64,000 nucleotides of DNA from a bacterium (GTDB taxonomy: Bacteria; AUK180): the NCBI GenBank assembly GCA_023144005.1, contig JAGLGN010000020.1:62001-126000 (forward strand). The letters run 5' to 3'. Positions 1,571 through 39,103 of the stretch are shown one piece after another (positions within the stretch are counted from its first letter, which is position 1; each line of letters begins with the position of its first letter). The notes under the pieces are model-generated. The model had not been told where the DNA came from, ran no database searches, and saw only the letters and a program-made list of their open reading frames with translations. The translations under genes and the position numbers were made by a program.

Positions 1571-1599
1571 TTGAAAAAAAGTTGAAAATGGTATAAAAT
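1571..1599 (+). promoter_or_regulatory. Sigma-70-type promoter of the giant TPR operon, predicted leaderless
   Basis: TTGAAA (1571-1576) and TAAAAT (1594-1599) have a 17-nt spacer. The -10 box ends 6 nt before the ATG at 1606, so transcription should begin at or next to the start codon. No Shine-Dalgarno sequence lies between. Confidence 0.6.
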
Positions 1600-1605
1600 T
1601 CCTTT

Positions 1606-4600
1606 ATGGGGCAGAAAGAGGAACTTCAGATCTATTTGAACCGAGTTCAAAGCAAGGTAGCCGGGGAATCCGATTATCTTAATGCGATCCAGATATTCGC
1701 GGATCTCAAAAATTTTCCAAGGGTTATCACATTATCACAGCAGGGATTGGAGAATTTTCCGGATGAAGGGATATTCCATTACTGGTACGCCTTCGCTTCC
1801 TTTTACCTTAAGAAGTTCGAAGCCGCGTTCACAAGTGTCAATCTCGCGGTGAACAACAATACTGAACATCTGGATTCTATTCTGCTCGGATACAGGATAT
1901 CTATCGAGTCCTCTGATCCCGACAACGCCTTGATCTTTTTGAAATTAGGCGCGGATCGTTTCCCCGACGAAAGCGAAATGCATCAGACCATATTTGATTT
2001 TTTTGATAATAACGGTGAATTCGTTTCCAATCACGTCAATCTTATTACATCGGTTTATGCCAACGGAGAAAAACGGCTGGGAAAATTCCTTCTTGACACC
2101 TTCTACTCCGGCAAGATCACCACTGAACAGGCACTTGATGTATATATCGAGAATTTCTCCCAAAAAAGCGATGACAAAGACTTCTCGAGATTCGTCTGTA
2201 GTATCATCATAAAGGATGAGAGGACGGATAAACCCGCGTTATCGGTTCTGCAGGGTGTTTATGACAGCGGCAATAAATCAAAGGCCGTGGTCGGATATCT
2301 CTCGGATGTCTCTGCTGCCAAGGGCGCTTGGGGAGATGAGAATCAGATACTTTATGAACATGCTGTCGAACTGAACTGCGCTACTTACTCCGTTTTCAAA
2401 CTTCTGGCGAATAAATATATCTTACTGCAGCTCAAAGATGAAAATTCCCTTGATGTCATTTTTCAGTATTTCCTCTTTGAACCGGACAATAAAGACACCA
2501 TAACATATCTGATCCCCTTTGTTCTGAAGAAGAAAACATACACCGAGGATGAAAAGAATTTCCTGAAGATCGCATTTCGGCTCTTTCCCGATAATTTTGA
2601 TATCTTCGCGAAGCTTGTCGAGAATATGCTCTTTGATGTCAACGAAGTCATTGACAATCTGACATTTCTCCAGAGGTATATAGAGGAATTCCCCCAGTCA
2701 GAAGCTGCCATAAAACTACTTGGCTCGGCCTATCTGAAATTAGGAAGAAAGGACTCCGAGGCGCTTTTCATCTATGAAAAATTCGTAAGGTTCAATTCGG
2801 ATAGCCTTGAGTTGATCTCTATCCTTACCGAATACTATCTCTCCGAGAACCGCCGCAGCCGATTGGCGATAATCATCTATGAGAAGGCGTTCCAAATGGG
2901 GCTTACTTCCAAAGGGCTTTTCGGAATACTCGCCCTTTATTACCTTGACAATCAATCCATTACAGACAGCAACATACCGATCTTCATCAGCGTTTTCAAC
3001 AATTTAAGAAAGGATCCCCAACCCTATTCCAATTTTCTGAATACATTGTCCGGGGCGATCCTGAAGAAAAAGATCACTATCACGGAGAATGAGTTCTTCT
3101 TCGAATCCCTGAAAGACATTATCAAGATCCTTCAGCCGCAGGAGGATATATTCTATTCCGCATTCGTAAAACTGGGCATTTCACTCCATAAGATCGACAA
3201 TGACTCATTTGAGATCTACAAAAGGCTGATCGCGAAGTTCAAGGCCTCTAAGAAATTCCTCATGCTTCTTTTCGATGCCTATTCCTCGCGTAATGTCGTG
3301 GATGAAGAGGGACGCTCCGTTATGGAAGCGATCTATGAGAAACTCTCTGAATCGGACAAGCAAAAGGCAACGCTTCTTCTATCCCAGTATTACATGGATA
3401 ACAAGATAAAAGACGATTTTGCGGGCGGTATTATTTCCAAAGCGAATTCTCTTATTAAAGATGGTGTTAAACTTGAAGGGAATCTCGAAAAACTGGTACA
3501 GTACGCGGTAAAGAACGAGAAAAAGGATAGCGAGACCTTAGAGCTTTACTTCAGGTACCTTCAGATCAATCAGGAGAATCCTGCGGTGTTCAGATCAGCA
3601 TGTGAGCTAATTGTGGATAAGGCGATCTTTGAAAAGAAATTCCTTTCGATCATGAAGAAGGGAATGGAGCTCTTTGATGACTGGAGAGAACTGTTCAATC
3701 ATTATGCGGTCGCCTTGGCGAAGAACAAGATCCGCGAATCGGATTCTTATCCAATCTGGGAAAGATTCATTCTCTCCGGGAACAAGGACGACTCCATCGT
3801 AATCGAACTCCTGTCACATTATATCAATAAAGGCACATTGGACAGAAAAGCAGAGAGAGTATTTTCTTTTGCCATGGGCATCGGATATAAGAACGCGGAG
3901 ATACTTCTTCAATACTCCCGCATCCTTGCAAAGGACGGAAATTATAATAAACTTATCAATGTCATCAGCGATCTGATAAAATTCGACATCAAGGAAGTGG
4001 AAGATATCAAGTTCATAGCGGATACATTGCTATTTTATGCCAAATTTGATGTCCTGGAGAAATTTCTCGGTAAATACTCAGACAAATCCGAATTCATCCT
4101 TCGCTATAAATTAAGAAATCTCTTTTATTCGAATAAGCTGGCGGATAATGAAGAATGCCTGGCACGTTTTGTCTCAAAATACAAGATCAAGGACAATAAC
4201 GCCGATATCTACGAATTCTACGGCGACTTTTATTTCTACGAAAAACGTGACCTTAAGAAAGCCATTCACGGATACAGTGAGTATTTGAAAATGTCGCCCA
4301 ATGACGCGCTGATCCTTTATAAAGCCACCATTTGTGTCCTGGAGATAGGAGATACCTACTCCGCCCTGAAGTATGTCAAGAAGCTGCTGCTTTTCAGAGA
4401 ACATGATATTGAAGCTCAGAAGATTGCGGCGAATATACATTTCAAGCTGGGGCAATACCCCGAAGCATCGGGCTTTTATAAGAGGATCATATCGGTTGGA
4501 TACAAGGATACCGAGATACTGAAGAATTACGCATTAGCGCTTTTCTTCTCACAGCAGTATTACTCCGCCATTGACCTCTTCAGAGAGATCCTCACCGACG

Positions 4601-7600
4601 ACCCGAATAATCAGGAACTCCTTCTTAACCTTGCATATGCCTATACCTATATTGATTTCAAGGAAGAAGCCGAAGATACACTGAGAAAGATCATTGACAA
4701 TAACCCGCAGAATAAAGAAGCGCTCTTCGCGCTTTTCGCCATATACCTTGAAGATGTAAGAGCTGATGAACATGCCGAGGGGCTCTTCAATCTCGTATTG
4801 AAAATGGACCCCGAAAATCTCGATGCCTTAAAAATGCTTTCAATGATCTACGGAAAGCTCGGCCGAAATGATGAGCGGGCAATAAGCATTTATGTCAAGA
4901 TCCTGGATTACGGAGAACCTCCCCCGGAAATAATCAAGATACTGGCGAATAAGCTCAATGAAGAAGGCTCCGGACTGCATGGACAGTTCAGGATCAAGAT
5001 ATTCTCCAGGGCCGTCGAGTTCTTCCCTTCCAATGAGAAGTACTGGGTCTCTCTGATAGATCTGATCTCCGAAGAATTGGAATTAGAACCCTTTACAAAG
5101 ATACTTGAAGCCGCATATGAAAAGAAGATCAGAATATCTGTCTGCGCGGAAAAACTCGCGAAACTGGCCTATGACAAGGGCGAAATTGACAAGGCCTTGA
5201 TCTATGCGAAGACCGTGCTGGCGCATAATCCGTATAAGAGCGAAATATATAACCTGGTTGGCGAGATACTGATCGAAAAAGGCTCATTGGAAGAAGCAAA
5301 GGATGTATTGAATAATGCCTTGATATATGACTCGGGAAATTTCTACGCTTATTTGAACTCAGCCAAGGTCATGCATTTGATGAAGAATTTCCCCCTCGCT
5401 CTTAAATATCTGGAACGATCACTTAATATAAACAAGTACTATCTTCCGGGAATACTCCTCTACGCGGAAATTTCCGTGGAAAGGAATATTAATCTTGACA
5501 ATGCGAAGAACGCGCTCAAATTCGTCAAAGATATCTATCAGTCAAATTGGGAAATATCCTACTGGCTGGCCGTGATCAACAATTTAAAGGGAGATTCAGA
5601 ACTTGCTTTGATGCAGATCGACGAAGCTCTCGGTTTTGAATTGAACCTGGAATCAGTTCTACTGAAGGCGGAAATTCTGAAGCAGGACGGAAAATACCAG
5701 GAAGCTTTGGATTTTCTAAATCAACAGAAAGATGAACTTAACGCGCCTGAACTTTTCAACGCTTTGGGGCAATTGTACTTCGATTTGGACGATATAGAAT
5801 CATCAAAGGAAGCTTATTCACTGGCGGTATCGATCGATCCTAATTTTATTCAAACCCAGATAGCTTTAGCGAAACTGCATTATTCTGTGGATAAGGACCT
5901 CGAGACCGCGAAGGTAGAATTCATGAATATTCTGGAATTCAACGCCGAAAATGAAGAGGCGCAGAGATTTTTGGGCAAGATCCATTACCGCAAGAAAGAA
6001 TATAAAGAAGCATTAAAAGTTTATATGCGGGTTTTTGAATATCTGGATTATGAGGATCTGAAATACCTCACTTCGATATACTTCATGAGAGGGCTTTTTG
6101 ATGAAGTCCTTGAATTAGCGGCGAATCTTATACAGCAGAGAAGTGACGACCTGGATGTTGTCACCATTCTTTTTGAAACCTACTGCGCATTGCAGCTCTA
6201 TGACAAGGCCATTGACGCTTTCCAGACCTTGAGGATAAATGATTCTGAAAGAGCTCAGGAGTATTTCGAGAAGTATTTCGGAATTCTTATTTCTTCAGGA
6301 AATTACAAGAAACTCCGTGAAGAATTGCAGGAACTCATTAAGGATCAGAGGTACGGGGCAAAGTATGCCGAGTACTTCTTCTTTCTTGAATACATACTCT
6401 TTAACACCAAATTCGAGGATATCAAATTCCTTCTGAAGTTCCTTCTCGACAAAAAACAGGATAAGATAGATTTCAAGAAGAACAGAGACCTTATGCTTTT
6501 CCACATCCTTCTTCAGGAAAACGCCTTCTCTTCGATCGATACTTTCATTCATATCTTTAACAAAGAAGATGATACCATTCGTTTCCTTACAGCCATGTAT
6601 TATGTCAAAAGCGGCAAGGAAAAGGGCGCGTTGAATCTATTGAAGAGTTTTCACGAATATTGGTCAAGGCCTTATTTCACTCCATTCCTAGGCTACTCAA
6701 AAAAGATATTCGTACACCTTAAGGAAAGGTACAGGTTCAACCGGATCTGGGAAATGCTGGCTAATCAGGATATCAGAGATGAGAAAGATTATTGGTACAA
6801 GATCTTTCTTAAATACGCTGAAGAAAAATTAGGCGAAAAATTCCTTGAGAAGAACAAGATCGACAAGGGACTGCATACATTACACTCCCGATTGGAAAGA
6901 TATGAGCTGGCAAAGGGGAAAAAGGACTCTGATCTGAACTCGGATCTCTTTTTGAAGATGTATCAGTTGTATTTCTTCCTGGAGGGGGATTTCAAGGAAT
7001 GTCAGAAGATCGCCAAGAAGAATGATCAGCTACCGGGACTCCTGTTCTCAAAGGACCTCTTTACCGAACTTGCCAAGAAAAAAACTGACAATAAGAAGAT
7101 CATGACATTGGTTTCCAAAGAGCTCCTCATCGATGAGGTTCCCTATTTCATTGACTTCCTGTATGAATACAAGATACCTGAACTCGCTAAAATGACGATA
7201 CTTGACGCTGACAAGAAAAAATTGACAGAACATCACTCTGAGATCCTCTACAATTTATATGAAAAGGGCCTTCTGGAGCCCAATAAAGAAATAGAGGCGA
7301 TATTATCCAACTCAAGATCGTGCAATGCGCGCTTCCTCTTGCGCAACGGAAGATATGAAGAGGCCTATAAGACAGTCATGGAGATGAATTATCTGGAGTT
7401 CACATCCCCGGGTAATTGCAATAGCGTCATGGAAGCAATGAGGGTCAATGAGGATTACGATCAATTGCTGACCTATCGCTTTAGATATATCGACCCTTCA
7501 TTCGCCAATGACAATACCAATCTGTATTCCGCTATCGCCCTTTCTAAATTCTCCTTTGAGGAGCGAGCACATACACTGCTCTCGGGAATACAATTCGACA

Positions 7601-10600
7601 ATATCGAATTCCTGAACGCTACCAGGGATATTGCCACGGAAAATCAATATCCCGGGAAACAACGCATAGAGAACTTCCTCTCAACTTCTCCTCACCCGAA
7701 ACAGATCTTAGAGCTCTTCGACCTTCTCAAGGATTATGACCGGGATCTTCTGAAACAATTTGACGGGTCATTAAAAGAAATGCTCCCTGAGCCGATGTAT
7801 CTTCAGTTACAAGGCAGGGTTATCTTCATTGAAGGCGATATGACAGGGGCTCTTGATAAATTAAAGGATTCGGAAGATTATGAAGACCTGAAACTTATCG
7901 TTTCCCTCTCCTCGGGAATGGAGGCGAAGGATATCATCGAAAAAATGGTGGCCATAGTCAATAAGAAAAAAGAATATTACGAACAATACATTACTTTTCT
8001 CCCCTTCTCTTTCAAAGAGGTATTTCTTCACGCTGCCAGAGATGACCTATTCTCTCTTAAGACGCAGCTTTTTGAGCTTTTCGCAAATCTGCATGATCTT
8101 GAAGGGAAGCTCACCGTCGGGAAAGAATTGGTAAAATTCGATCCCACTCAGATCTATATTTACAAAGAGATATTCTATATTCTCCGGGACTTCAAGCAGG
8201 ATTATGTGGGATCATTGAAAATACTGAATAAAATGCTCAGCCTGAATCCCAAGGACGCTGATCTGATCCTGGAAAAAGGCAAGCTGCTCATTCAAGAAGG
8301 GCGTGAGGAATATGCCTTGAACTTCCTCCTTGAGAACAAGGGACTTTCAAGTAAGATACTCTCCTATATCGGCGAGATCAATGAAAAGAGAAAACGGCCG
8401 TCCGATGCCATCGAGATTTACGAACAGCTCTTTGATGCAACGGAAGATCTCATGTACTACGAGAAGGTGATCCAGCTCAAATATTCACTGGAATTATATT
8501 CTGAAATACTTGAAATGAACGAAAAGGACAGGAGAAAATCCGATCTTATCAATTATTATCTCGGAATGAGCCTTTTCCACCTTAAAGAATACAAGAAGGC
8601 AAATGAATTCCTGTCCAGCATTAAATCACCTAAATTCCCCCACAAGGATGATGTAGTGGTAACGATGGGCCTCATTTTCTTTAATCTTGGCGATTTCCAG
8701 AGATCTCAGAGTTTCCTGGAAAAAGCCATTAAGAATAAGAAAAGAGAAGACATCGCATGGGCGAAATTCGCTGAGATCCTCTATTCCAAAAAGAATATCC
8801 AGAAAGCCGAAAAAACGCTGGAAACCGCTATCGCCAAAGGATATACGGACCCATCTATACACCTTCTCGGCGCCGAGATCTACTTCACGATGAACAATAA
8901 GCAGAAACTGGTGAAGCAATTACGCATACTCTCCGGCGCTACTCTTCCGGATACGGTACAGAATCACTTAAGATATGGAATAATCCTTCATAAGACAGGC
9001 AAGGAGGAAAAGGCGGAATCTGAATTCCTGAGGATAATCGAAAACCTTCAGCCTGATAATCCCACCGCTTTGAAATACCTCATAGATATATATTTGAAAC
9101 AGGAGGCTTATACACGTTGTCTTCCCCTGGTAACACGGGCGTTCAAAAAGGAACCGAGAGGGAATGCTTTCACTTACGCCTCCGTTCTTTATGCCATGGG
9201 TAGATTCGATGAAGCGCGTGAGATCGCACGGAATATCAACTCCGACACAATGGAGGTCGAGCGATTCAAAGGGAAATTGTATTACGAGTTGAAATCCTAT
9301 GATGAGGCATTGGCGAGATTCAACGCCATACTTGAAAAAGAACCCAAGGATTTTGAGGCCTATCTCTATATCGGAAAGATCTACTACTCACTTTTTGATA
9401 TACCCAAGGCGATCGAATTCCTGAAGATCGCGGAGAACCTGGACGAGAACGACTTTGAGGTCCTGAAATTCCTCGGCCTGGCGTATAATAAGATGAGCGA
9501 TACCATAAACACGATCATCTTTCTAAAAAAAGCCCTGTCCCTTAATGCCAAAGATCATGAAACGATCAGGGAGCTGGCTCAATTGTACTACTCAAAGAAA
9601 CGCTATAAAGAAGCCATAAAGGAATTCAGCCGTGTAATCGCAGTTAAGTTCAACCTTCCGTCCGTACACTTTCAAATGGCAAAAGCGTACCGTCATTTGG
9701 GAGATTATGATAATGCGGAGATCCATGTGAACAATGCCCTTGAATTTACACCGGCTGAAGAGGTGTTCCTTGAGGAGAAGATCAACATACTCCAGAATCT
9801 CGAGAGACATTCGGACATTGTAACAACGCTTCAGGATTTCTCCAAGAATGCCAGTTTAGACGCGAAACTTGTTCTTACAATGGTTGAGAGCTTGAGAAAA
9901 CTCAATCGCTTCACTGCAGCTCTGAAGATTGCAGAGAATTACAAGATCCCTGAAATGGCCGCTAACGATTTCAAGAAGGAAAAAGCAATTCTGCTTTATC
10001 AATTGAAAAAATATGATGAGGCGCTTCCCCTTCTGGAGGAATTGCACAAGAATTCGGACAGTGATGAGGTATTCATTATCCTCTGTTTCACCTTAATAGA
10101 GATGAAGAACACACAGAGATTGAGAACACTCGTTAAGAATTATAAGGGAGAATTGCTGAAAAGTGAATATATCCCGTATATCAGAGGTTTTATTGAGATC
10201 AATGATGGCAATAAGGAAATCGCCCTGAATTACTTCTATCAATCCATCACGATGAACAAGGCTTTCGTTCCCGCTTACAGGAGGCTCAGCGACATCTATA
10301 TACAGAATTCCAATTATGTAATGGCAATCGACATTCTTCACAAGGCATTGGCCTATGAAGATACCAAGAAGAACGATCTTTATTATTTCCTTGGATATTC
10401 CTATTTGCAGCTGAACGACCTCTTCAATGCTCTCAAATACATCAAAGAAGCTCTGAAGTGGGATTATCTCAACTCAGCCGAACTTACCGCGGAGATCTAC
10501 AAAGCACTTGGATTATTCGGATACGGGCTCATCAGCATGAAGAAGCTGTGGATGGAGGAAAGGGTGAATTCCGCATTCGCCTGGAAATCCATTATTTACT

Positions 10601-11022
10601 GCTTATTCAAATTGAACCGTGACAGGGATGCGGTCATTGAATCATTCTACAATCTGGTCGATATCGATTCTGATATACTCATCATTGAATTCGCAAAAAC
10701 ACTTTTACACAAGGATAAAAAACCCTATGCGGCATATGAAGTGATCAAGGACCGCATAGATAAGGACAAGCCTAATATTGAACTCCTCTACTTGTACTTA
10801 AGTGCCGTGGGAGAAGTGAATCTTGATGTCGATATTTCATCAATGATAAATTGGATCAAGGAGATAACAGATAAGGAGCAGAATCCCAAACTACTGGAAG
10901 CGATGGGGATCTACTACTATAAAAAGGGTAATTACATTTCAAGCTCGTCCTATTTGCAGAAGGCGATAACAGTAAATCCTGACTCCGATACTGCCATCTA
11001 TTACCTCTCCCTTCTTAAATGA
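1606..11022 (+). CDS. Giant tetratricopeptide-repeat protein (3138 aa)
   Basis: Almost the whole protein reads as degenerate 34-residue helical hairpins with TPR spacing, for example the YPEASGFYKRIISVGYKDTE and YDEALARFNAILEKEPKDFE types. There is room for up to roughly 90 units. I see no signal peptide, membrane segment or catalytic domain, so it is probably a very large cytoplasmic scaffold. It has no SD sequence, and the -10 box directly before the ATG suggests a leaderless mRNA. It is first in a seven-gene operon and overlaps the VanZ-like gene by 4 nt. The proteins that follow are a two-component pair and exported proteins, so an envelope-related assembly role is possible but only inferred. 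No frameshift or stop interrupts its 9.4 kb. Confidence 0.93.
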   Translation: MGQKEELQIYLNRVQSKVAGESDYLNAIQIFADLKNFPRVITLSQQGLENFPDEGIFHYWYAFASFYLKKFEAAFTSVNLAVNNNTEHLDSILLGYRISIESSDPDNALIFLKLGADRFPDESEMHQTIFDFFDNNGEFVSNHVNLITSVYANGEKRLGKFLLDTFYSGKITTEQALDVYIENFSQKSDDKDFSRFVCSIIIKDERTDKPALSVLQGVYDSGNKSKAVVGYLSDVSAAKGAWGDENQILYEHAVELNCATYSVFKLLANKYILLQLKDENSLDVIFQYFLFEPDNKDTITYLIPFVLKKKTYTEDEKNFLKIAFRLFPDNFDIFAKLVENMLFDVNEVIDNLTFLQRYIEEFPQSEAAIKLLGSAYLKLGRKDSEALFIYEKFVRFNSDSLELISILTEYYLSENRRSRLAIIIYEKAFQMGLTSKGLFGILALYYLDNQSITDSNIPIFISVFNNLRKDPQPYSNFLNTLSGAILKKKITITENEFFFESLKDIIKILQPQEDIFYSAFVKLGISLHKIDNDSFEIYKRLIAKFKASKKFLMLLFDAYSSRNVVDEEGRSVMEAIYEKLSESDKQKATLLLSQYYMDNKIKDDFAGGIISKANSLIKDGVKLEGNLEKLVQYAVKNEKKDSETLELYFRYLQINQENPAVFRSACELIVDKAIFEKKFLSIMKKGMELFDDWRELFNHYAVALAKNKIRESDSYPIWERFILSGNKDDSIVIELLSHYINKGTLDRKAERVFSFAMGIGYKNAEILLQYSRILAKDGNYNKLINVISDLIKFDIKEVEDIKFIADTLLFYAKFDVLEKFLGKYSDKSEFILRYKLRNLFYSNKLADNEECLARFVSKYKIKDNNADIYEFYGDFYFYEKRDLKKAIHGYSEYLKMSPNDALILYKATICVLEIGDTYSALKYVKKLLLFREHDIEAQKIAANIHFKLGQYPEASGFYKRIISVGYKDTEILKNYALALFFSQQYYSAIDLFREILTDDPNNQELLLNLAYAYTYIDFKEEAEDTLRKIIDNNPQNKEALFALFAIYLEDVRADEHAEGLFNLVLKMDPENLDALKMLSMIYGKLGRNDERAISIYVKILDYGEPPPEIIKILANKLNEEGSGLHGQFRIKIFSRAVEFFPSNEKYWVSLIDLISEELELEPFTKILEAAYEKKIRISVCAEKLAKLAYDKGEIDKALIYAKTVLAHNPYKSEIYNLVGEILIEKGSLEEAKDVLNNALIYDSGNFYAYLNSAKVMHLMKNFPLALKYLERSLNINKYYLPGILLYAEISVERNINLDNAKNALKFVKDIYQSNWEISYWLAVINNLKGDSELALMQIDEALGFELNLESVLLKAEILKQDGKYQEALDFLNQQKDELNAPELFNALGQLYFDLDDIESSKEAYSLAVSIDPNFIQTQIALAKLHYSVDKDLETAKVEFMNILEFNAENEEAQRFLGKIHYRKKEYKEALKVYMRVFEYLDYEDLKYLTSIYFMRGLFDEVLELAANLIQQRSDDLDVVTILFETYCALQLYDKAIDAFQTLRINDSERAQEYFEKYFGILISSGNYKKLREELQELIKDQRYGAKYAEYFFFLEYILFNTKFEDIKFLLKFLLDKKQDKIDFKKNRDLMLFHILLQENAFSSIDTFIHIFNKEDDTIRFLTAMYYVKSGKEKGALNLLKSFHEYWSRPYFTPFLGYSKKIFVHLKERYRFNRIWEMLANQDIRDEKDYWYKIFLKYAEEKLGEKFLEKNKIDKGLHTLHSRLERYELAKGKKDSDLNSDLFLKMYQLYFFLEGDFKECQKIAKKNDQLPGLLFSKDLFTELAKKKTDNKKIMTLVSKELLIDEVPYFIDFLYEYKIPELAKMTILDADKKKLTEHHSEILYNLYEKGLLEPNKEIEAILSNSRSCNARFLLRNGRYEEAYKTVMEMNYLEFTSPGNCNSVMEAMRVNEDYDQLLTYRFRYIDPSFANDNTNLYSAIALSKFSFEERAHTLLSGIQFDNIEFLNATRDIATENQYPGKQRIENFLSTSPHPKQILELFDLLKDYDRDLLKQFDGSLKEMLPEPMYLQLQGRVIFIEGDMTGALDKLKDSEDYEDLKLIVSLSSGMEAKDIIEKMVAIVNKKKEYYEQYITFLPFSFKEVFLHAARDDLFSLKTQLFELFANLHDLEGKLTVGKELVKFDPTQIYIYKEIFYILRDFKQDYVGSLKILNKMLSLNPKDADLILEKGKLLIQEGREEYALNFLLENKGLSSKILSYIGEINEKRKRPSDAIEIYEQLFDATEDLMYYEKVIQLKYSLELYSEILEMNEKDRRKSDLINYYLGMSLFHLKEYKKANEFLSSIKSPKFPHKDDVVVTMGLIFFNLGDFQRSQSFLEKAIKNKKREDIAWAKFAEILYSKKNIQKAEKTLETAIAKGYTDPSIHLLGAEIYFTMNNKQKLVKQLRILSGATLPDTVQNHLRYGIILHKTGKEEKAESEFLRIIENLQPDNPTALKYLIDIYLKQEAYTRCLPLVTRAFKKEPRGNAFTYASVLYAMGRFDEAREIARNINSDTMEVERFKGKLYYELKSYDEALARFNAILEKEPKDFEAYLYIGKIYYSLFDIPKAIEFLKIAENLDENDFEVLKFLGLAYNKMSDTINTIIFLKKALSLNAKDHETIRELAQLYYSKKRYKEAIKEFSRVIAVKFNLPSVHFQMAKAYRHLGDYDNAEIHVNNALEFTPAEEVFLEEKINILQNLERHSDIVTTLQDFSKNASLDAKLVLTMVESLRKLNRFTAALKIAENYKIPEMAANDFKKEKAILLYQLKKYDEALPLLEELHKNSDSDEVFIILCFTLIEMKNTQRLRTLVKNYKGELLKSEYIPYIRGFIEINDGNKEIALNYFYQSITMNKAFVPAYRRLSDIYIQNSNYVMAIDILHKALAYEDTKKNDLYYFLGYSYLQLNDLFNALKYIKEALKWDYLNSAELTAEIYKALGLFGYGLISMKKLWMEERVNSAFAWKSIIYCLFKLNRDRDAVIESFYNLVDIDSDILIIEFAKTLLHKDKKPYAAYEVIKDRIDKDKPNIELLYLYLSAVGEVNLDVDISSMINWIKEITDKEQNPKLLEAMGIYYYKKGNYISSSSYLQKAITVNPDSDTAIYYLSLLK

Positions 11023-11447
11023 TGAGATCATACAGGATTTTTGCTCTCATCATCATGCTGATGATCTTTACATTGAACGGCCTGCCGGGAGATACCGTCG
11101 GAAGCAAGGGCGTGATACGAATGATGTACGCCGTCATGGCATTTGAGAGAGCTCTTTCCCCATTGGGGTTCGCTTCTTTCCTGATCCCGATGGACGAATC
11201 CGCCGAAATACCGGAGAATGCGGATAAGCTGGTTCACTTCACCTTATACTTTATTCTGTCGATCTTCTTCTTTCGGGGATTCTTCCGGGGAGACAAACAG
11301 GCGGCGGCCCTTTGGCTCTTTGCTATTGCGGATGAACTGCAGCAAATTCCGGTAATGGGGCGCAGTTTTTCCTTATTGGACCTGATGTTTGACACATTGG
11401 GCATAATTTTTGTATACTATTTACTGGATGAAAAGCATAAAAATTAG
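11019..11447 (+). CDS. VanZ-like integral membrane protein
   Basis: A 142-residue membrane protein with an N-terminal hydrophobic helix and further helices around residues 70-90 and 120-138. The VanZ-like signature is visible: DKLVHFTLYFILSIFFFRGF, then ADELQQIPVMGRSFSLLDLM followed by FDTLGI. VanZ of enterococci gives low-level teicoplanin resistance, but most chromosomal relatives have no known function. The start overlaps the giant TPR stop, and the end overlaps the sensor kinase start. It is an in-operon partner of the TPR scaffold and the two-component pair. Confidence 0.8.
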   Translation: MMRSYRIFALIIMLMIFTLNGLPGDTVGSKGVIRMMYAVMAFERALSPLGFASFLIPMDESAEIPENADKLVHFTLYFILSIFFFRGFFRGDKQAAALWLFAIADELQQIPVMGRSFSLLDLMFDTLGIIFVYYLLDEKHKN

Positions 11448-12834
11448 AATTCTCCTTATATTTCTCCTGCCGTCGATCTTCATGATACTGACTCAATGGT
11501 ATTTTATAAATATTTTCATAAAGGATGCATTAGAAAAACAATTAATAAAATTCATCACGCATGTAGGGGAATCAGCAATAAGGGACATCTCCCCCGGAGA
11601 GATGCAGGTCTTCCCGAATTACCCTGAGACCGAGACCTATAAGAACCTGAGAGAGCGCTTATCGGGATACAGGGATAACTTCGCTATTGATAATATTCTT
11701 CTTCTGAACAGCGATAAAAGAGTCATACTTGACCTTTCCGACATGTTCAGAAACGGCGAAGAATTCCTGATGATGGATATAAACGACAAGCAATTCCTGG
11801 CCTTGAAGAACGGACAGATCAAAAAGTCGTCTCTCTATAAGAATATGCAGAACATATACAGCGAAAATGTATATATTCCAATTATCGGGAAAAACGGAGA
11901 CTTCCGGGGAGTGCTTGTGCTCTATGCATCGGTAAAATATTTTACGAGCATCATGAATTTTCAAAGGAAGCTCATTTCTTTCTTTTTAGCAATGGTCATA
12001 ATTCTGATCTTTGTTGTTTATTGGCTCGCCTCTACGATCTCCAATCCCGTTATTCGACTCTCAAAGGTCGTTGACCGTATAGGAATGGGAGAAATGGACA
12101 TACATGTCCCCTACAAGACGCGCGCTGATGAGGTCGGCCATCTGGCAGAAAATATTCAGTCCATGATGACAAAGATCGAGAACAGGGATATGTACATGCG
12201 TCAAATGTCCGCCGGCATAGCTCATGAGATAAGGAATCCCCTCACCTCGATCAAGGGCAATCTCATGCTCATTAAGCGGCGGGTGGACAATGATGATGAT
12301 ACCATGGAGATGCTTGAGGATAATCTGCGCGAGGTAAATGCATTGGAGAACCTTGTAAATGATTTCATGAATTACGCAAAATCGATCAAAATAGAGCTCA
12401 AGACCGGAGAGCTCTCAGATATTATATCAAGAGCTGTCGGGGAAACAATGCCGTTCATGCAGCAGAAGGAGATCGTCCTTTCACAGGATATCTCTACTTG
12501 TGTTCTGGCAGCGGACCAAGACCACCTGAAGCGGGCTTTTGTCAATATCATTAAAAACAGCATTGACGCGGTCCCCATCGGAGGGGAGATCCGCATCAGT
12601 TCAACTCTGAAAGACGGGCTGGTCAGAGTATCTTTCAAGGATTCCGGTGAAGGCATCCCCAAGGATGACCTGATGCAGATATTCGAACCATTCGTAACCT
12701 CGAGGTCCACGGGAACAGGGTTGGGACTCACCATAGTTAAAGAAATAATAGAGAAACATAAGGGAAATATCAAGATAGCTTCGGCTGAAGGCAAAGGCAC
12801 GGAAGTTACCGTCTCATTACCCTTTAGGAGATAA
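11428..12834 (+). CDS. Membrane sensor histidine kinase, NtrB-like class
   Basis: A 468-residue kinase. Two membrane helices (about residues 5-25 and 185-205) bracket an extracytoplasmic sensor of about 160 residues. A HAMP linker follows, then the phospho-accepting His in MSAGIAHEIRNPLTSIKG, the N box AFVNIIKNSIDA and the G2 box TGTGLGLTIVKEI. I chose the ATG at 11428 (MKSIKIRILLIFL) over an upstream in-frame TTG at 11410, which would add six polar residues and lacks a ribosome site. It overlaps the VanZ-like gene by 20 nt, and the response regulator starts 3 nt after its stop. The signal sensed is unknown. Confidence 0.93.
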   Translation: MKSIKIRILLIFLLPSIFMILTQWYFINIFIKDALEKQLIKFITHVGESAIRDISPGEMQVFPNYPETETYKNLRERLSGYRDNFAIDNILLLNSDKRVILDLSDMFRNGEEFLMMDINDKQFLALKNGQIKKSSLYKNMQNIYSENVYIPIIGKNGDFRGVLVLYASVKYFTSIMNFQRKLISFFLAMVIILIFVVYWLASTISNPVIRLSKVVDRIGMGEMDIHVPYKTRADEVGHLAENIQSMMTKIENRDMYMRQMSAGIAHEIRNPLTSIKGNLMLIKRRVDNDDDTMEMLEDNLREVNALENLVNDFMNYAKSIKIELKTGELSDIISRAVGETMPFMQQKEIVLSQDISTCVLAADQDHLKRAFVNIIKNSIDAVPIGGEIRISSTLKDGLVRVSFKDSGEGIPKDDLMQIFEPFVTSRSTGTGLGLTIVKEIIEKHKGNIKIASAEGKGTEVTVSLPFRR

Positions 12835-12837
12835 TAT

Positions 12838-14229
12838 ATGGAAAAGATCCTTCTCGTTGACGACAATCAACCGATCCGCAGGATGATAAAGAGGCTTTTT
12901 GCAGACAAGAAGTATCTCTTTCATGAAGCGGAGACCTTGAAGGGAGCCGTCGGGCATCTGGAAAAGGATAAATATGACCTTATCATTACTGACCTTAAGC
13001 TTCCCGATGGGGATGGTATTGAACTTCTGAAGCAGAGAAATGCCAATGATATGGAGTCTGAGATCATAATCATCACCGCATACGGGGATGTTGAAACTGC
13101 CGTAAAGGCCATGAAAGACGGGGCTTTCGACTTCATCATCAAGCCCTTGAATATCGATGAATTCGAGATCAAGGTAGAAAAAGCCCTTGAGAAGGTCGCC
13201 CTCACACAGGATAATGAACGTCTTAGAGAGACCATAAATATAATGGCGGATAATGAAAGCGAGGATTATAATTTTTCTGAGATCAAAGGTGGGTCCAAAG
13301 AATTAGTAGAGGTGATGGAACTTGTAAAAAAGGTAAGCCACTCTACCGCCGCTGTGCTGATCACCGGCGAATCAGGAGTTGGAAAAGAACTTGTAGCCAG
13401 AGCCATCCATTTTAATTCAGATCGATGCAATAAACCCTTTGTCCGTGTGAATTGCGCGGTTTTTTCGGAAGGGATATTGGAATCGGAACTCTTCGGACAT
13501 GAAAAGGGAGCGTTTACAGGCGCGATGAATAAACGTTTGGGAAGATTTGAGATCGCTGACGGCGGCACGATCTTTCTTGACGAGATCGGAGACCTGCCGG
13601 CCAATACACAGGTAAAACTCCTTCAGGTCCTTCAGGAATTTACCTTTGAAAGGGTAGGTGGAAATGTACCCATCTCCATCGATGTAAGGGTTATCGCCGC
13701 GACCAATAAGAACCTTCAGGAGAAGATACTTGACAATACGTTCAGAGAAGATCTCTTCTACAGGATCAATGTGGTACCTGTGCATATTCCCCCGCTCAGA
13801 CAAAGGACAGATGACATCGAACTACTGACCGAGTTCTTCATCGACAAGTTCGCGAGAGAAGGCCAAGATCCAGGGAATAAGCTCACGATATCTCCGGAGG
13901 TCATGGCTGAATTGAAGAAATACGCCTGGCCGGGCAATGTCAGAGAATTAGAACACATCATCGAACGAATGGTAATACTCTGTTCCGGAAATTCTCTTGA
14001 GATCCGGGATATTCCCGTCGAAGTGATAGAGAAAAGGGACATTCCTACAATGAAGAATCTTGATCTTGAAGGAACATTGAAGGAGGTCCTGGAACAATAT
14101 GAGCGGAAGATAATCAAGTATTATCTTGAAAAAGAGAATTACGATAAGCAGCATACCGCAAAAAAACTGGGTGTTAAGCTGAGCACTCTGTACAATAAAA
14201 TTGATAAATATGGCCTGAAAGGAAAATGA
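12838..14229 (+). CDS. Sigma-54-dependent response regulator, NtrC family
   Basis: A 463-residue protein with all three NtrC modules. The receiver (residues 1-120) has phospho-acceptor Asp52 in IITDLKLPDGDG. The AAA+ domain has Walker A GESGVGKE and the sigma-54 contact loop GHEKGAFTGAMNKR. It also has the GGTIFLDEIGDLP Walker B region and the YAWPGNVRELEH motif. The C-terminal Fis-type helix-turn-helix is HTAKKLGVKLSTLYNKIDKY. A good SD sequence (AGGAGAT) precedes the ATG. It is the partner of the adjacent kinase and activates sigma-54 promoters elsewhere. I found no convincing -24/-12 element in the gaps of this window. Confidence 0.95.
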   Translation: MEKILLVDDNQPIRRMIKRLFADKKYLFHEAETLKGAVGHLEKDKYDLIITDLKLPDGDGIELLKQRNANDMESEIIIITAYGDVETAVKAMKDGAFDFIIKPLNIDEFEIKVEKALEKVALTQDNERLRETINIMADNESEDYNFSEIKGGSKELVEVMELVKKVSHSTAAVLITGESGVGKELVARAIHFNSDRCNKPFVRVNCAVFSEGILESELFGHEKGAFTGAMNKRLGRFEIADGGTIFLDEIGDLPANTQVKLLQVLQEFTFERVGGNVPISIDVRVIAATNKNLQEKILDNTFREDLFYRINVVPVHIPPLRQRTDDIELLTEFFIDKFAREGQDPGNKLTISPEVMAELKKYAWPGNVRELEHIIERMVILCSGNSLEIRDIPVEVIEKRDIPTMKNLDLEGTLKEVLEQYERKIIKYYLEKENYDKQHTAKKLGVKLSTLYNKIDKYGLKGK

Positions 14230-14984
14230 AGAAAGCGTTTTGCCTGATCCTTATTCTTGCTGTTTTCACTGTAAATGTCTTTTCTCAAGACAATTACGAT
14301 GAAATAGTTGGAAGGATAAGGCAGATCGAAAAAAATATCTCACGGCATGAAAAAAAGGAACTTTCATACAAAAAGAAGCTGTCGAAATACTCCGAAAGGA
14401 ACGATTTTATTTCCAGAGCCAGACAGCAGAGTTATCTTAATAAGCTCAATAAAATACAGACCCTGCTCTTTCGTGAAAAGAAGTCAAAAAGGGAATTATT
14501 GGAAAAACTTAAACCGATATTAATAGTTACTCTGCGGCAATTGGAAGAGAGCATCATAGAGACCACTGTGAAAAGAGAGCCGGAAAAACTCCTCGTATTG
14601 GGAGAGGAGTATTATGAAACAAAAAAACTCTTCGATTTTTATTTTGAGGAAAAAATTGATATAATCCTAAGTGCCGATGAACCTGAGGATGTGAAGGAAA
14701 TGAAACTTAAACTCATCAGGGAAAGGATCACTTCTTATCAAAAGGATGTTTCAAGGAACATCGCAATGATAGGGAAACTCAACGAGCAGATACTTTTTCT
14801 GGAAGAATCCAATCTGATCTCACCTCAGGGAGAGGACGCCTTGAGGGACTATATTGATTTTGTGAAGCGGACGATCAATTATTTGACAGCGGATGTCAAC
14901 GGGAAGCGCGGAATGCTGGAATTTTATGATAAGCAACTAAGGGAGTTCAAGGAAGGAGAAAGGGATGAGACGGACAATAATTAG
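14226..14984 (+). CDS. Secreted coiled-coil protein, unknown function
   Basis: 252 residues starting with a signal peptide (MKKAFCLILILAVFTVNVFS, then Q). The mature part is almost entirely charged helix with heptad-like Lys/Glu/Leu patterns over residues 25-245, predicting an elongated periplasmic coiled coil. No family recognised. It overlaps the response-regulator stop by 4 nt and the next secreted protein by 20 nt, so it belongs to the giant-TPR operon. A periplasmic spacer or adaptor working with the barrel protein downstream is a guess from context only. Confidence 0.75.
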   Translation: MKKAFCLILILAVFTVNVFSQDNYDEIVGRIRQIEKNISRHEKKELSYKKKLSKYSERNDFISRARQQSYLNKLNKIQTLLFREKKSKRELLEKLKPILIVTLRQLEESIIETTVKREPEKLLVLGEEYYETKKLFDFYFEEKIDIILSADEPEDVKEMKLKLIRERITSYQKDVSRNIAMIGKLNEQILFLEESNLISPQGEDALRDYIDFVKRTINYLTADVNGKRGMLEFYDKQLREFKEGERDETDNN

Positions 14985-15651
14985 TTTTTTGGTGATACTG
15001 TTTTTATCTTCACTGATATTCGGCACAACTACTGAAGCGAAGAAGATAATTGAACAGGACGATAGGCAGGATAAGAGATTGGTTGAGTTTTTGGAAAATG
15101 AATATATCAACTCATTCATTCTTTCGGACAGGACCCTTGGAATAATCGCCAACATCAACGGGAGTTCCTATTATGTTAAACGCATAGAGGATGCGGAAAA
15201 CTTTCAACTGAGACTTATCGACCTTGATACCGGCGCTCAGATCTCATCTTTGCCCTATTTTAAAATGGAGGATTTCACCATAGATCCGACAGGGAATTAC
15301 TACATTATCACACTGGGGAACGGAGAAGTACTGGAGATCCCGGTATGGATGGAATCCAATAGCGTCTGGGAATTGCTTGCGGAATATTCCGGAATACCTA
15401 TTTATCTTGATGACAGGATCATCGGCGTCACCTTATTTCTGACCGACAATATACAATTAAGTCTTTACAGCCCGTTTTACGGACTCTTTAATGTACAATT
15501 CACCAATCTTTCCAATAAGCTTTTTGAGGAGATGAAATTGGATCTCTTCTTTGACCAGGAAACAGAAAGCCTTCTGCTTAAGAAAAAAGAGAATCAGGAA
15601 AAAAAAGAAAAAGATGAAGAAAATATTGAAAAAGAGGTAGTTATTGAATAA
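14965..15651 (+). CDS. Exported protein, unknown function, with charged C-terminal tail
   Basis: 228 residues. The signal peptide is MRRTIISFLVILFLSSLIFG followed by a TTTEA cleavage region. The mature domain (about residues 35-200) is rich in beta-strand-like segments, and the last 25 residues are a Lys/Glu-rich tail. The ATG at 14965 is preceded by AAGGAG and lies inside the end of the coiled-coil gene. The next gene starts at a TTG inside this gene. No family recognised. Position suggests it acts in the periplasm with its two neighbours. Confidence 0.75.
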   Translation: MRRTIISFLVILFLSSLIFGTTTEAKKIIEQDDRQDKRLVEFLENEYINSFILSDRTLGIIANINGSSYYVKRIEDAENFQLRLIDLDTGAQISSLPYFKMEDFTIDPTGNYYIITLGNGEVLEIPVWMESNSVWELLAEYSGIPIYLDDRIIGVTLFLTDNIQLSLYSPFYGLFNVQFTNLSNKLFEEMKLDLFFDQETESLLLKKKENQEKKEKDEENIEKEVVIE

Positions 15652-16726
15652 ATTACATGCCGGCCTCCTCGTACTTCTGCTGACATTCTGCCATGGCGCA
15701 GCATATTCACAGAATTCATTTATTCTTCTCGGAGGGTATGAGAAAACACTCGATACGATGCAGGGAGGATGGAAATTTCAGACCGAAGGAGAGGTGAAAG
15801 ATTTCAAACTATCGCTATCACTTTTCCATCTTGTCCAGTATTCTGACGGTGACATACTTCCAGTATATCAATCCGTCATTGAGGTTTCCAAAGATATTGA
15901 CCTGAACAGGAAGAACTTTCTGAAATTTGAATTCTCCTTTCGCAATCAGGATAATTTCGATCCCCTTCTCTCCGCTAACAGGATAACCCTGCGGGAAAGT
16001 CTTTATCATCTCTTTGATACAAAGAATTATTTCAAATTGCAGCTGATTCAGCAAGGCGCCGACTATCTGCATACGGACATCATTGATTATTACCGTGTGG
16101 GCCTTTTCGCGAAGATCATCCGACGGGCTTCTCTTTCAGATTCGATCTTTCTCTCATTTCAGAGCATGTACACAATGCTGCCGAATTGGGAGATCGAGGA
16201 CGAGAAAAAGCGTTCTGACTTCACTTCTACGATTTTGGTCTCCTTTTCCCGATACCTTACAAGGAATTTGACCTTTACTCTCAAATATCAGATCCTTTAC
16301 AATTATTCCTCTACCAGTGTATCACAGCTTGACATCAAATACTTCTATCTGGATACCCCTGATTCCGAAGAGACAAAGCAATTAACAGCTGACTTCTATA
16401 ATTATTTTCTTCACATCCTTTCTGGAGAGTTCATGCGTTACTTCTCCCGAAATCTGATCGGGAAGTTGTCGCTGGCATTCGAATCCAAAGAATACACACA
16501 AAGAAGAGCGTACAATAAGGAAGGCACTCAGAAGAACGAATTTGAAAGGGATTTCAATTTCACCGGCTCCCTCGCATTGATCTTCAGGAACTTCCCCTTC
16601 AAGCATGTCAATCTTGTGGGCGAATTCAAATATGAGAACAAGAGTTCAAATAATGATTATGACGGCTTTTACTATTACAATATTAAGAAATATGGTTTTA
16701 ATCTGAATTTCTTTTACGAATTCTGA
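15644..16726 (+). CDS. Predicted outer-membrane beta-barrel protein
   Basis: 360 residues with a signal peptide (MNKLHAGLLVLLLTFCHGAA, then YSQ). After it come alternating hydrophobic/polar strands rich in Tyr and Phe, ending in a terminal aromatic strand (FNLNFFYEF). A C-terminal Phe is the classic BAM recognition feature of barrel proteins. The start is TTG at 15644, chosen because AGAGG lies 6 nt upstream; the next ATG would remove the signal peptide. It is the last gene of the operon and converges with pyrK, overlapping it by 13 nt. Substrate or role unknown. Confidence 0.7.
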   Translation: MNKLHAGLLVLLLTFCHGAAYSQNSFILLGGYEKTLDTMQGGWKFQTEGEVKDFKLSLSLFHLVQYSDGDILPVYQSVIEVSKDIDLNRKNFLKFEFSFRNQDNFDPLLSANRITLRESLYHLFDTKNYFKLQLIQQGADYLHTDIIDYYRVGLFAKIIRRASLSDSIFLSFQSMYTMLPNWEIEDEKKRSDFTSTILVSFSRYLTRNLTFTLKYQILYNYSSTSVSQLDIKYFYLDTPDSEETKQLTADFYNYFLHILSGEFMRYFSRNLIGKLSLAFESKEYTQRRAYNKEGTQKNEFERDFNFTGSLALIFRNFPFKHVNLVGEFKYENKSSNNDYDGFYYYNIKKYGFNLNFFYEF

Positions 16727-35675: not shown

Positions 35676-36743
35676 TTATTCCTCTTCGTATCTTTTTCTT
35701 TCTATTTTTGTTATCTCTTTGTTAGTTATTTCATTTGTTTCTATATTGATGAATCCATTACCAAAAAAAACATACTTCCCATTATTAGTAACGCTAAAAA
35801 ATGGATTCTTCTTATCTAATCCTAGTTCGGAGTTTGTAAAAATTCTTTGCCAAACAATTCTATTTTCAGAAATTAAATTTAAATGGTACGTATTTTCATC
35901 AAGATATGTAGGGAGAAGATAGTATTCACTGTTATCTGAGAAGCACCAAGGGCATAGACTAAATCCCTTAATATTATGAGATTCATAATCGAAATCTTCA
36001 ATTAGTTCAATTTTATTTTCTTCATAATCAAAGCCAAATACTTGATATTCTTTTTTATCAAATATTAATATGTAGCTCGCATCAGGTGAAAGTAAATAGC
36101 TTTTATTTTCCATAGTTGTGCTAAATATTTTTTCTCCACTTGTATTATGTATTTCTAAAAATCCAGAACTTGCAATTTCTTTTACCGTATCCAGGATTAT
36201 ATAGCCATTTGACAAAACTTGTCCTTTAGAGATTGCTTTTCCAACCTCAAGGTTGAAGTTTTGGATCATTTGCTTTTCTTCTCCACCTTGATATACCTCT
36301 ACTTCCCATAGGTCTTCCCAGATTTCTTGGGTTTCTACTCCTTTCCATCTTAATACATATTCCTTGTTTTTTGAATAGGTAATATACTCATGATAAGTTC
36401 CTTGGCGCATTTCTCCATCTTTAGGTGATTTATACACATACTCTCTATCTTTTCTTAGCTCAATTTTCGTATTCGGATCATACTTTGTCGTATCAATCTC
36501 ATATCCACCAACTTTCAATATCTTCACATCAGTCAATTCGTGATCTGTCTTGTCTGCAATATCCCCGCTCTTACTCTCTAATTGTACTTCATTCTCAACC
36601 TTCACCGTCACTACCGGCTTCTCAATATCCTTATCTGATTTTAAAGTTTTACTCTCCTTCTCTCCAATCTTTTTGCAGCCAGCAAATACAACAAATATTC
36701 CAAGAAGGATAAATAAAACAATAATAAGCTTTTTACTGTTCAT
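35676..36743 (-). CDS. Lipoprotein, propeller-like, array member 1
   Basis: 355 residues. The signal peptide has a lipobox (FVVFAGC, about residue 22), followed by a charged linker containing DIEKPVVTVKVENEVQ. The same segment occurs in the next gene (37999-36740). The remainder is Tyr- and Asn-rich beta strands with repeated ILIFDKKEYQVFGFDYEE-like blades, as in WD/PQQ-type propellers. Function unknown. The start overlaps the upstream gene as ATGA. Base composition is much more AT-rich than the neighbouring operons. Confidence 0.8.
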   Translation of the reverse strand: MNSKKLIIVLFILLGIFVVFAGCKKIGEKESKTLKSDKDIEKPVVTVKVENEVQLESKSGDIADKTDHELTDVKILKVGGYEIDTTKYDPNTKIELRKDREYVYKSPKDGEMRQGTYHEYITYSKNKEYVLRWKGVETQEIWEDLWEVEVYQGGEEKQMIQNFNLEVGKAISKGQVLSNGYIILDTVKEIASSGFLEIHNTSGEKIFSTTMENKSYLLSPDASYILIFDKKEYQVFGFDYEENKIELIEDFDYESHNIKGFSLCPWCFSDNSEYYLLPTYLDENTYHLNLISENRIVWQRIFTNSELGLDKKNPFFSVTNNGKYVFFGNGFINIETNEITNKEITKIERKRYEEE

Positions 36744-37999
36744 TTTCTTAAAACCGTTAACGGAAGAGAAAACTTTCCTTTATATTCACTCTTCATTAAT
36801 TTTTTATCTTTAATTTCAATAACATCGGAGCCTCTAAATTCCCCCAATTTCTTTATCTTTTTTGTCATGTAATCAATTTTCTTAGAACCTATATTGTAGC
36901 AATAAAACCTGTAGAATTCTCCCTCCTTTCCCGGATAAATAATATACTTACCGTCCTTACTGATAGCAAGAAAAGCAGTGAAGGAAAATTCCTTTTCCCA
37001 GATCTTATTTCCATTTCTATTGAAAATCAGGCATTTTGTTGTCAAATTGCTGTCTTTTTTATGAAAATAGGATGCTTTCAGCAAAACTACTTCATCATTC
37101 TCTGACACTCGCAGACTTTTGCTAGAATTTGGTGAATATTTTCCTAAATCATGCTCTTTACACCATATCAGATTTCCCGCAAAATCCCATTTCAACATAT
37201 AAGCAACATAATTATCACCTACTTTTTTACGATTGAAACCATAAATATAATTGTCGGAAATAATGAAATTAATACCTTGAAAGCCACATATATCAAATTC
37301 TTTACTCACTTTTCCATTAAAGCCCATTATAGCGCATTTTGATGAACATCCATCTCCCCAACATTCTAACATTAAATATCCAGAGAGATCGGGTAGTAAG
37401 TCAAAATGATAGTTAGAATATTCGATAGCAATACTTGTTTTTTTATAAAGGCTACCTTTGCTATCATAAACCTCTAAATATTCTGTTTTTCGTTTCTCAA
37501 TATTATATTTTTCAAGAAGAATATATTTGTTTCCATTGTACACGACAATACTCCCGCTTGTGTAACCATCGACTTCCTTTGTTTTCACCCCATCGAAAGT
37601 GTAAATCTCTATCCCATCATTCCCATCAATCCCATCATATTGTTTTGTTTTTTTCACTAAGGGATAGTTGATTTTCACCTTGTCAGTATTCTTGTAATTC
37701 TTAAATCCTATATACCCCATTCTCTTTGCATTCTCAACCGTGGTTTCACCTTGAATCCAGATCTCGTTGCTGGAATGCTTATATCCTGGCTTTTCATATT
37801 CAACAGTAACCTCAACAATATCACTTAAATCATCTACCTCATCACCATTGTTACTCTCTGATTGTACTTCATTCTCAACCTTCACTGTCACCACCGGCTT
37901 CTCGATATCCTTACTTGCTTCCTCACTCTTCCCACAACCCACCGCTCCAGAAAGCACAATAATAACCAAAATCAAGGTAATTCTGAGTTGTCTTTTCAT
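36740..37999 (-). CDS. Lipoprotein, propeller-like, array member 2
   Basis: 419 residues with signal peptide and lipobox (LSGAVGC, about residue 22). The linker DIEKPVVTVKVENEVQSES nearly repeats that of array member 1, showing recent duplication of the N-terminal region. The body has strands of the propeller kind, for example NGNKYILLEKYNIEKRKTEY and ISKDGKYIIYPGKEG. Overlaps its neighbours by 4 nt on both sides. Function unknown. Confidence 0.8.
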   Translation of the reverse strand: MKRQLRITLILVIIVLSGAVGCGKSEEASKDIEKPVVTVKVENEVQSESNNGDEVDDLSDIVEVTVEYEKPGYKHSSNEIWIQGETTVENAKRMGYIGFKNYKNTDKVKINYPLVKKTKQYDGIDGNDGIEIYTFDGVKTKEVDGYTSGSIVVYNGNKYILLEKYNIEKRKTEYLEVYDSKGSLYKKTSIAIEYSNYHFDLLPDLSGYLMLECWGDGCSSKCAIMGFNGKVSKEFDICGFQGINFIISDNYIYGFNRKKVGDNYVAYMLKWDFAGNLIWCKEHDLGKYSPNSSKSLRVSENDEVVLLKASYFHKKDSNLTTKCLIFNRNGNKIWEKEFSFTAFLAISKDGKYIIYPGKEGEFYRFYCYNIGSKKIDYMTKKIKKLGEFRGSDVIEIKDKKLMKSEYKGKFSLPLTVLRK

Positions 38000-39060: not shown

Positions 39061-39103
39061 ATATCTCCTTAACAACCGTCCTCAACTTTTCCTAATACGA
39101 AAA

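Follow-up and report, generated by a model that had tools for sequence, protein, structure and literature searches.

A row of seven genes raises the question of why a giant TPR protein is encoded together with a VanZ-family membrane protein, a two-component switch and three exported proteins, and whether their products serve one system. The genes lie on a 64,000-nucleotide stretch (G000:C13:62001-126000, hereafter the window) of a draft genome of 2.67 Mb. The host phylum is the uncultured Candidatus Mcinerneyibacteriota, according to the label on a homologous record (L020) and the taxonomy.

Gene organisation

The window contains seven ORFs on the same strand between positions 1606 and 16726, which encode the TPR protein (P0001), a VanZ-family protein (P0002), a membrane sensor kinase (HK, P0003), a sigma-54 response regulator (RR, P0004) and three exported proteins (P0005-P0007, here called the trio) (Table 1). 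All of them were found where the preliminary description had placed a seven-gene operon. Its statement that the genes overlap one another holds for five junctions (4-20 bp), but not for HK and RR, which are parted by a short gap. Purifying selection acts on each of the seven genes, with dN/dS values of 0.03-0.19 between two congeneric genomes. The 3' neighbour of the operon is convergent with it and encodes a protein with a DHODB iron-sulfur domain. On the 5' side, divergent genes of the minus strand encode a P-II signal protein (946-1287) and a GAF-like protein (1-949); these are shared only with the congeneric genome and are thus placed outside the conserved unit. A reading of the locus as a defence system was dropped, since the RR was the sole match, via generic AAA+ and receiver models.

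Table 1. Features of the operon, with positions in the window, junction to the following gene and dN/dS between G000 and its congeneric genome
Feature	Position	Strand	Basis	Junction with next gene	dN/dS
Sigma-70-type promoter candidate, TTGAAA-17-TAAAAT (putative)	1571..1599	+	Pattern scan		
Giant TPR protein P0001, 3138 aa, no signal peptide or TM segment	1606..11022	+	Pfam TPR models, periodicity	4-bp overlap	0.062
VanZ-family membrane protein P0002, 142 aa	11019..11447	+	PF04892, NF037970	20-bp overlap	0.137
Membrane sensor HK P0003, TM-periplasmic-TM-HAMP-HisKA-HATPase	11428..12834	+	Domain models, motifs	3-bp gap	0.188
Sigma-54 RR P0004, receiver-AAA+ (GAFTGA)-Fis-type HTH	12838..14229	+	Domain models	4-bp overlap	0.030
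P0005, exported helix-rich coiled-coil candidate, 252 aa	14226..14984	+	Signal-type N-terminus, orthologues	20-bp overlap	0.134
P0006, exported, no known relatives, 228 aa	14965..15651	+	Signal-type N-terminus	8-bp overlap	0.157
P0007, exported outer-membrane beta-barrel candidate, 360 aa, C-terminal F	15644..16726	+	Low-confidence model, Foldseek		0.137

Conservation within the phylum

Six of the seven phylum genomes (G000, G001, G002, G004, G005 and G006) carry the complete set of genes, unchanged in order and orientation; they span two families of one class: f1, to which the window belongs, and f2 (G005 and G006). The identity of the TPR protein to that of the window is 99% in G001, 56% in G002, 48% in G004 and about 24% in G005 and G006, and that of the RR in family f2 is 50-52%. 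The flanks of the operon differ in every genome except the congeneric pair. The TPR gene of G006 is cut by contig ends, with the N-terminal piece on contig C318. The seventh genome, G003, is fragmented: pieces of the TPR gene were found on two of its contigs, and VanZ, HK and RR share another, so that loss of the operon was rejected; the trio was not found in G003, where the RR contig ends at that point. The TPR gene of G003 is followed by an unrelated 373-aa gene instead of VanZ (L108 4392-5513, G003:C168), presumably, as judged by eye, that of a YhcG/DUF1016-like nuclease.

The preliminary description had proposed a search for conserved neighbourhoods and named dispersal of the gene set in related genomes as the outcome that would speak against it. 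As six of seven genomes keep the seven genes together and in one order, between unrelated flanks, such dispersal is not seen, and the gene set is one conserved, phylum-wide, selected operon. Every phylum genome examined has the unit, complete or in part, whereas for two of the seven proteins no relatives were found in other phyla; the operon is thus probably one of the determinants of this phylum's cell surface.

The giant TPR protein

Many Pfam TPR models score far over their cut-offs on P0001, and its hydrophobicity follows a period of 34/35 residues (autocorrelation of 0.13-0.14 vs a shuffled maximum of 0.07), so the TPR content attributed to this 3138-residue protein is real. The repeats are described here by their periodicity, since counting the units with a home-made HMM yielded no more than fragments; a non-periodic stretch extends over approximately residues 1500-2130. 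No membrane helix or signal peptide was found (maximum 19-residue hydropathy of 1.19). Orthologues in the three genera of family f1 are 3133-3139 aa long, and the protein of G005 (family f2) has 3239 aa at its longest start. P0001 also scores over the cut-off of TIGR02917 (PrsT), with 337.1 vs 312.2 bits; the best stretch covers 478 of the 3138 aa, and the score may reflect TPR content alone.

The VanZ-family protein

P0002 exceeds the cut-offs of both PF04892 (39.5 vs 30.1 bits) and NF037970 (43.8 vs 20 bits), and its residues H73, D105, E106, Q109, D121 and D125 are invariant across six orthologues. The lipocone active site, as described in the part of PMC12419801 considered here, consists of H in helix 2, an acidic/ExxQ motif in helix 3 and D in helix 4, and P0002 and its orthologues keep these positions. 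Family membership and active-site positions are therefore common to P0002 and the lipocone-superfamily VanZ proteins, and, within that part of the source, no VanZ was met alongside a giant TPR protein and a sigma-54 two-component pair.

Sensor kinase and response regulator

ATG 11428 (MKSIKI..., kept in orthologues) is a more likely start of the HK than TTG 11410. Two transmembrane segments, with a periplasmic domain of approximately 160 aa between them, are followed by HAMP, HisKA and HATPase domains, and the motifs HEIRNP, DSGEGI and GTGLGL are present. A PDB sequence search with the sensor domain gave no significant relatives. The RR, which shares 50-67% identity with its orthologues from other genera, has the NtrC-type architecture of a receiver, a sigma-54 AAA+ domain with an intact GAFTGA motif and a Fis HTH, and scores below the cut-offs of the NtrC equivalog (TIGR01818, 413 vs 558.6 bits) and of PrsR (TIGR02915, 391.2 vs 502.6 bits). 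The pair had been named NtrBC, a loose term that fits the architecture of the RR but not the kinase: NtrB is soluble, and the two transmembrane segments and HAMP domain mark this protein as a periplasm-sensing membrane HK.

The exported proteins

P0005, P0006 and P0007 each have a signal-type N-terminus. None of them scored over the cut-off of any Pfam or NCBIfam family, and PDB sequence searches gave no significant relatives for any of the three. P0005, whose orthologues occupy the same position in six genomes, is highly charged and, by alignment, helical; its PDB profile matches were weak and mostly to coiled coils. P0006 is the most conserved trio member between genera. No convincing relatives of it were found outside the phylum in a set of 386 genomes, where two matches with E values of 0.006-0.009 per genome correspond to chance expectation, nor outside the phylum in a scan of GTDB contigs, which catches fairly close relatives only. 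The predicted model of P0006 (pLDDT 47) was of too low a quality to suggest a fold and had no significant structural match.

P0007, already suspected to be a barrel, is best described as an outer-membrane beta-barrel candidate, a designation that is supported but not proven. The predicted model has about 13 strands, the Foldseek PDB matches listed are beta-barrels, nearly all of them outer-membrane proteins, and the signal-like N-terminus and the last residue (F in the window, F or M in 6/6 orthologues) point the same way, but the model itself is of low confidence (mean pLDDT 52.8).

Promoters and regulation

The -10 hexamer of the promoter candidate for the TPR gene ends just 5' of ATG 1606, and a similar sequence stands directly before the ATG in G001, G002 and G004. 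No Shine-Dalgarno sequence is visible 5' of the start codon. Since the -10 hexamer abuts the ATG of this 9.4-kb gene, its transcript may be leaderless.

RpoN is encoded in 7/7 phylum genomes, and the genome of the window has five exact -24/-12 sites, compared with none for a reversed-pattern control. In family f2, about 200 bp separate the RR gene from the P0005 homologue, and near-perfect sigma-54 promoters were found in this gap, TGGCACAATTTATGCT in G005 and TGGCACAGAAAATGCC in G006. These sites align with each other and lie approximately 30 nt 5' of the first exported gene. Out of 2000 shuffles of each gap, none scored as well as the G005 site and about one as well as the G006 site, and the G005 site was recovered blind by a later genome-wide pattern search. 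A link from the switch (HK and RR) to the trio is thus supported for f2 by the predicted sigma-54 promoter between RR and trio, which would be a concrete connection of the sensor with the exported proteins. Each genome encodes about nine sigma-54 activators, so this promoter could answer to a regulator other than the RR of the operon; for the same reason, the regulator acting there is one that we infer, whereas the sequence itself gives the promoter class. In family f1, a sigma-54 site was sought before the TPR gene and at the trio, and none better than chance was found; given this and the overlap of the RR stop with the P0005 start, the trio and the switch probably share a transcript in that family. 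The promoter candidates suggest that the switch is expressed from a housekeeping-type promoter and that the exported trio is turned on by sigma-54. The earlier hypothesis was of an assembly from the cytoplasm to the outer membrane under its own two-component system; the part on control gains ground for the exported trio through the promoters of family f2, but no site in the window's own family bears it out.

Several further candidates were set aside. The palindrome TTCCG-N7-CGGAA, which lies 5' of the G005 site and was considered as an enhancer, is not intact in G006 and was not found at the other sites. Genome-wide sigma-54 sites were not retained as targets of the operon RR because of the approximately nine activators per genome. 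Three exact sites (L031, L036 and L039) were discounted, as they appear to lie inside a coding gene, which we take from reading to be that of a tRNA methylthiotransferase.

Elsewhere in the phylum, sigma-54 sites mostly precede exported, pseudopilin-like or chaperone genes. In five phylum genomes (L140, L129, L147, L122 and L127), such a promoter immediately precedes a pseudopilin-like gene (MKRKGTTIIELLVAV...), and, as judged from these predicted sites, the phylum seems generally to place pilin-like surface proteins under sigma-54 control. An exact site precedes an hsp20-dnaK pair (L044, G000:C13:228197), and other phylum genomes have comparable sites 5' of hsp20 and/or dnaK. One further site (L124, G000:C9:60969) is located before the gene of an exported protein that consists mostly of a very long lysine/glutamate/aspartate repeat.

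Relatives in other phyla and known systems

A profile of the P0007 family detected exported proteins of about 400 aa in other phyla, aligned via their C-terminal ~115 residues (best E value of 9e-9 per genome, 386 genomes). The genome G070, of another phylum, has one of them in a row of genes for a FecR-domain protein, a DUF3106 protein, a barrel candidate, the P0007-like barrel, a membrane HK, a sigma-54 RR and an exported helical protein. This array shares with the operon the distantly related barrel, the membrane HK, the sigma-54 RR and an exported helical protein, which is not demonstrably homologous to P0005; it differs in having no giant TPR protein, VanZ or P0006, and in having the FecR-domain protein and a second barrel candidate. 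In G350 the gene of the P0007-like protein directly adjoins that of a sigma-54 RR. The recurrence of a barrel with a sigma-54 switch supports the link between these two and, since TPR and VanZ are missing there, weakens the case for the giant TPR protein as an obligatory part. Other relatives of P0007 adjoin what we take, by reading, to be FecR-like or CHASE2-like genes. A P0007 paralogue in G005 (L158 455-3600, G005:C251) is likewise next to a membrane gene that reads as CHASE2-like, and the barrel and CHASE2-like neighbourhood occurs also in other phyla (L151, L154).

The closest described system in regulatory logic is PrsT-PrsK-PrsR of the PEP-CTERM/XrtA system, in which a TPR protein, a membrane HK and a sigma-54 RR are often encoded in tandem and sigma-54 promoters lie 5' of exported-protein genes (PMC1569441). 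PrsT, however, is a lipoprotein with a model of 899 positions, whereas the operon's TPR protein is cytoplasmic and 3.5 times as long as this model; no lipoprotein signal was found in P0001, whose N-terminus is not hydrophobic. Furthermore, a barrel, VanZ and two unrelated exported families belong to the operon unit, and the exosortase EpsH was found in 0/7 phylum genomes.

For a giant cytoplasmic TPR protein encoded beside exported and barrel proteins, the closest case is the Glt system of Myxococcus, where GltI/AgmK, a TPR protein of 4132 aa with no signal peptide or TM segment, is encoded beside exported proteins and an outer-membrane barrel candidate (PMC3169522). The operon has the same feature. 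Glt works with the AglRQS motor and FHA/TonB-type membrane partners, whereas the operon has VanZ and a two-component pair, and no homologue of its exported proteins was recognised in Glt via Pfam/NCBIfam family cut-offs. Each phylum genome has two MotA/ExbB genes, none of them in the operon locus; their position elsewhere is not decisive, because the motor genes of Myxococcus are in a separate cluster too. The operon thus resembles both systems in part and, on the tests made, is a member of neither. The preliminary description knew of no system with this composition, and a search of the open-licence literature found no published description of the combination, but PrsT-PrsK-PrsR, Glt and the G070 array are partial precedents. 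Since a TPR protein with a sigma-54 switch recurs in PEP-CTERM regulation and a giant TPR protein with a barrel in Myxococcus gliding, each in a studied surface system, the operon is a useful comparison case for the roles of giant TPR proteins.

Possible function and alternative explanations

The explanation that we favour, giving it about an even chance, is that in Candidatus Mcinerneyibacteriota the operon forms a dedicated cell-surface (envelope) module that regulates itself through its own switch. The housekeeping-type promoter before the TPR gene would drive the switch; an envelope signal received by the periplasmic sensor would lead HK to phosphorylate RR, and phosphorylated RR would turn on the helical periplasmic protein, P0006 and the barrel, which might assemble between the periplasm and the outer membrane. 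In the window's family, in which the gap is closed and no intergenic promoter is seen, the trio would be fused translationally to the switch. The giant TPR superhelix may act as a cytoplasmic adaptor or scaffold, and VanZ, in the inner membrane, may have lipid-linked head groups as its target, possibly on an envelope polymer that the module handles. Counted against this explanation are the lack of a sigma-54 site in f1, the presence of about nine sigma-54 activators per genome, the arrangement in G003, with an unrelated gene after the TPR gene, VanZ-HK-RR on a separate contig and no trio found where contigs end, and the low-confidence structure models. A bolder version, which we consider unlikely, is a self-contained, phylum-unique machine reaching from the cytoplasm to the outer membrane, in which a TPR superhelix of nearly fixed length (~3100 residues) would dock both on an inner-membrane platform of VanZ and the kinase and on the sigma-54-switched trio in the periplasm and outer membrane; what the giant TPR protein does, and that a trans-envelope complex exists at all, is what we infer.

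It might instead be that two units share one transcript, an envelope-response cassette of VanZ, HK, RR and the trio and an unrelated cytoplasmic TPR protein kept in place by promoter sharing. The gene order in G003, the trio's own promoter in f2 and the G070 array, with its barrel, HK, RR and helical protein but no TPR protein or VanZ, would all fit; but in all genomes other than G003 the TPR gene stands first in the unit at every resolved junction, down to 24% identity, and in the window's family it overlaps VanZ by 4 bp. This separation into two units is held to be improbable, at about the level of the trans-envelope machine. Somewhat less probable still is a PrsT-PrsK-PrsR-like module, in which the TPR protein tunes HK or RR and the output is a set of exopolysaccharide-associated surface proteins encoded elsewhere, the trio being one target among them. 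The same three kinds of protein do stand in one operon, P0001 passes the TIGR02917 cut-off (337 vs 312 bits), and the sigma-54 promoters before exported genes follow the same logic (PMC1569441); against this, RR is well below the PrsR cut-off (391 vs 502.6), EpsH was found in none of the seven genomes, and the TPR protein has no lipoprotein signal, is several times longer than the model and may owe its score to TPR content.

The least probable of these readings is an envelope-stress response, with HK sensing damage in the periplasm or outer membrane and the trio repairing or reinforcing the latter. A periplasm-sensing membrane kinase would suit such a role, as would the phylum's sigma-54 sites before hsp20-dnaK, but those sites are not assignable to the operon RR among nine activators, and a TPR protein of 3138 aa is unexpected in a response of this kind.

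Other genes in the window

The window also contains four adjacent genes of low GC content and strong skew on the minus strand (35676-40057). Their products, which gave no Pfam match at 1e-5, are lipoprotein- or membrane-anchored, and two of the four proteins share the sequence DIEKPVVTVKVENEVQ after the anchor.
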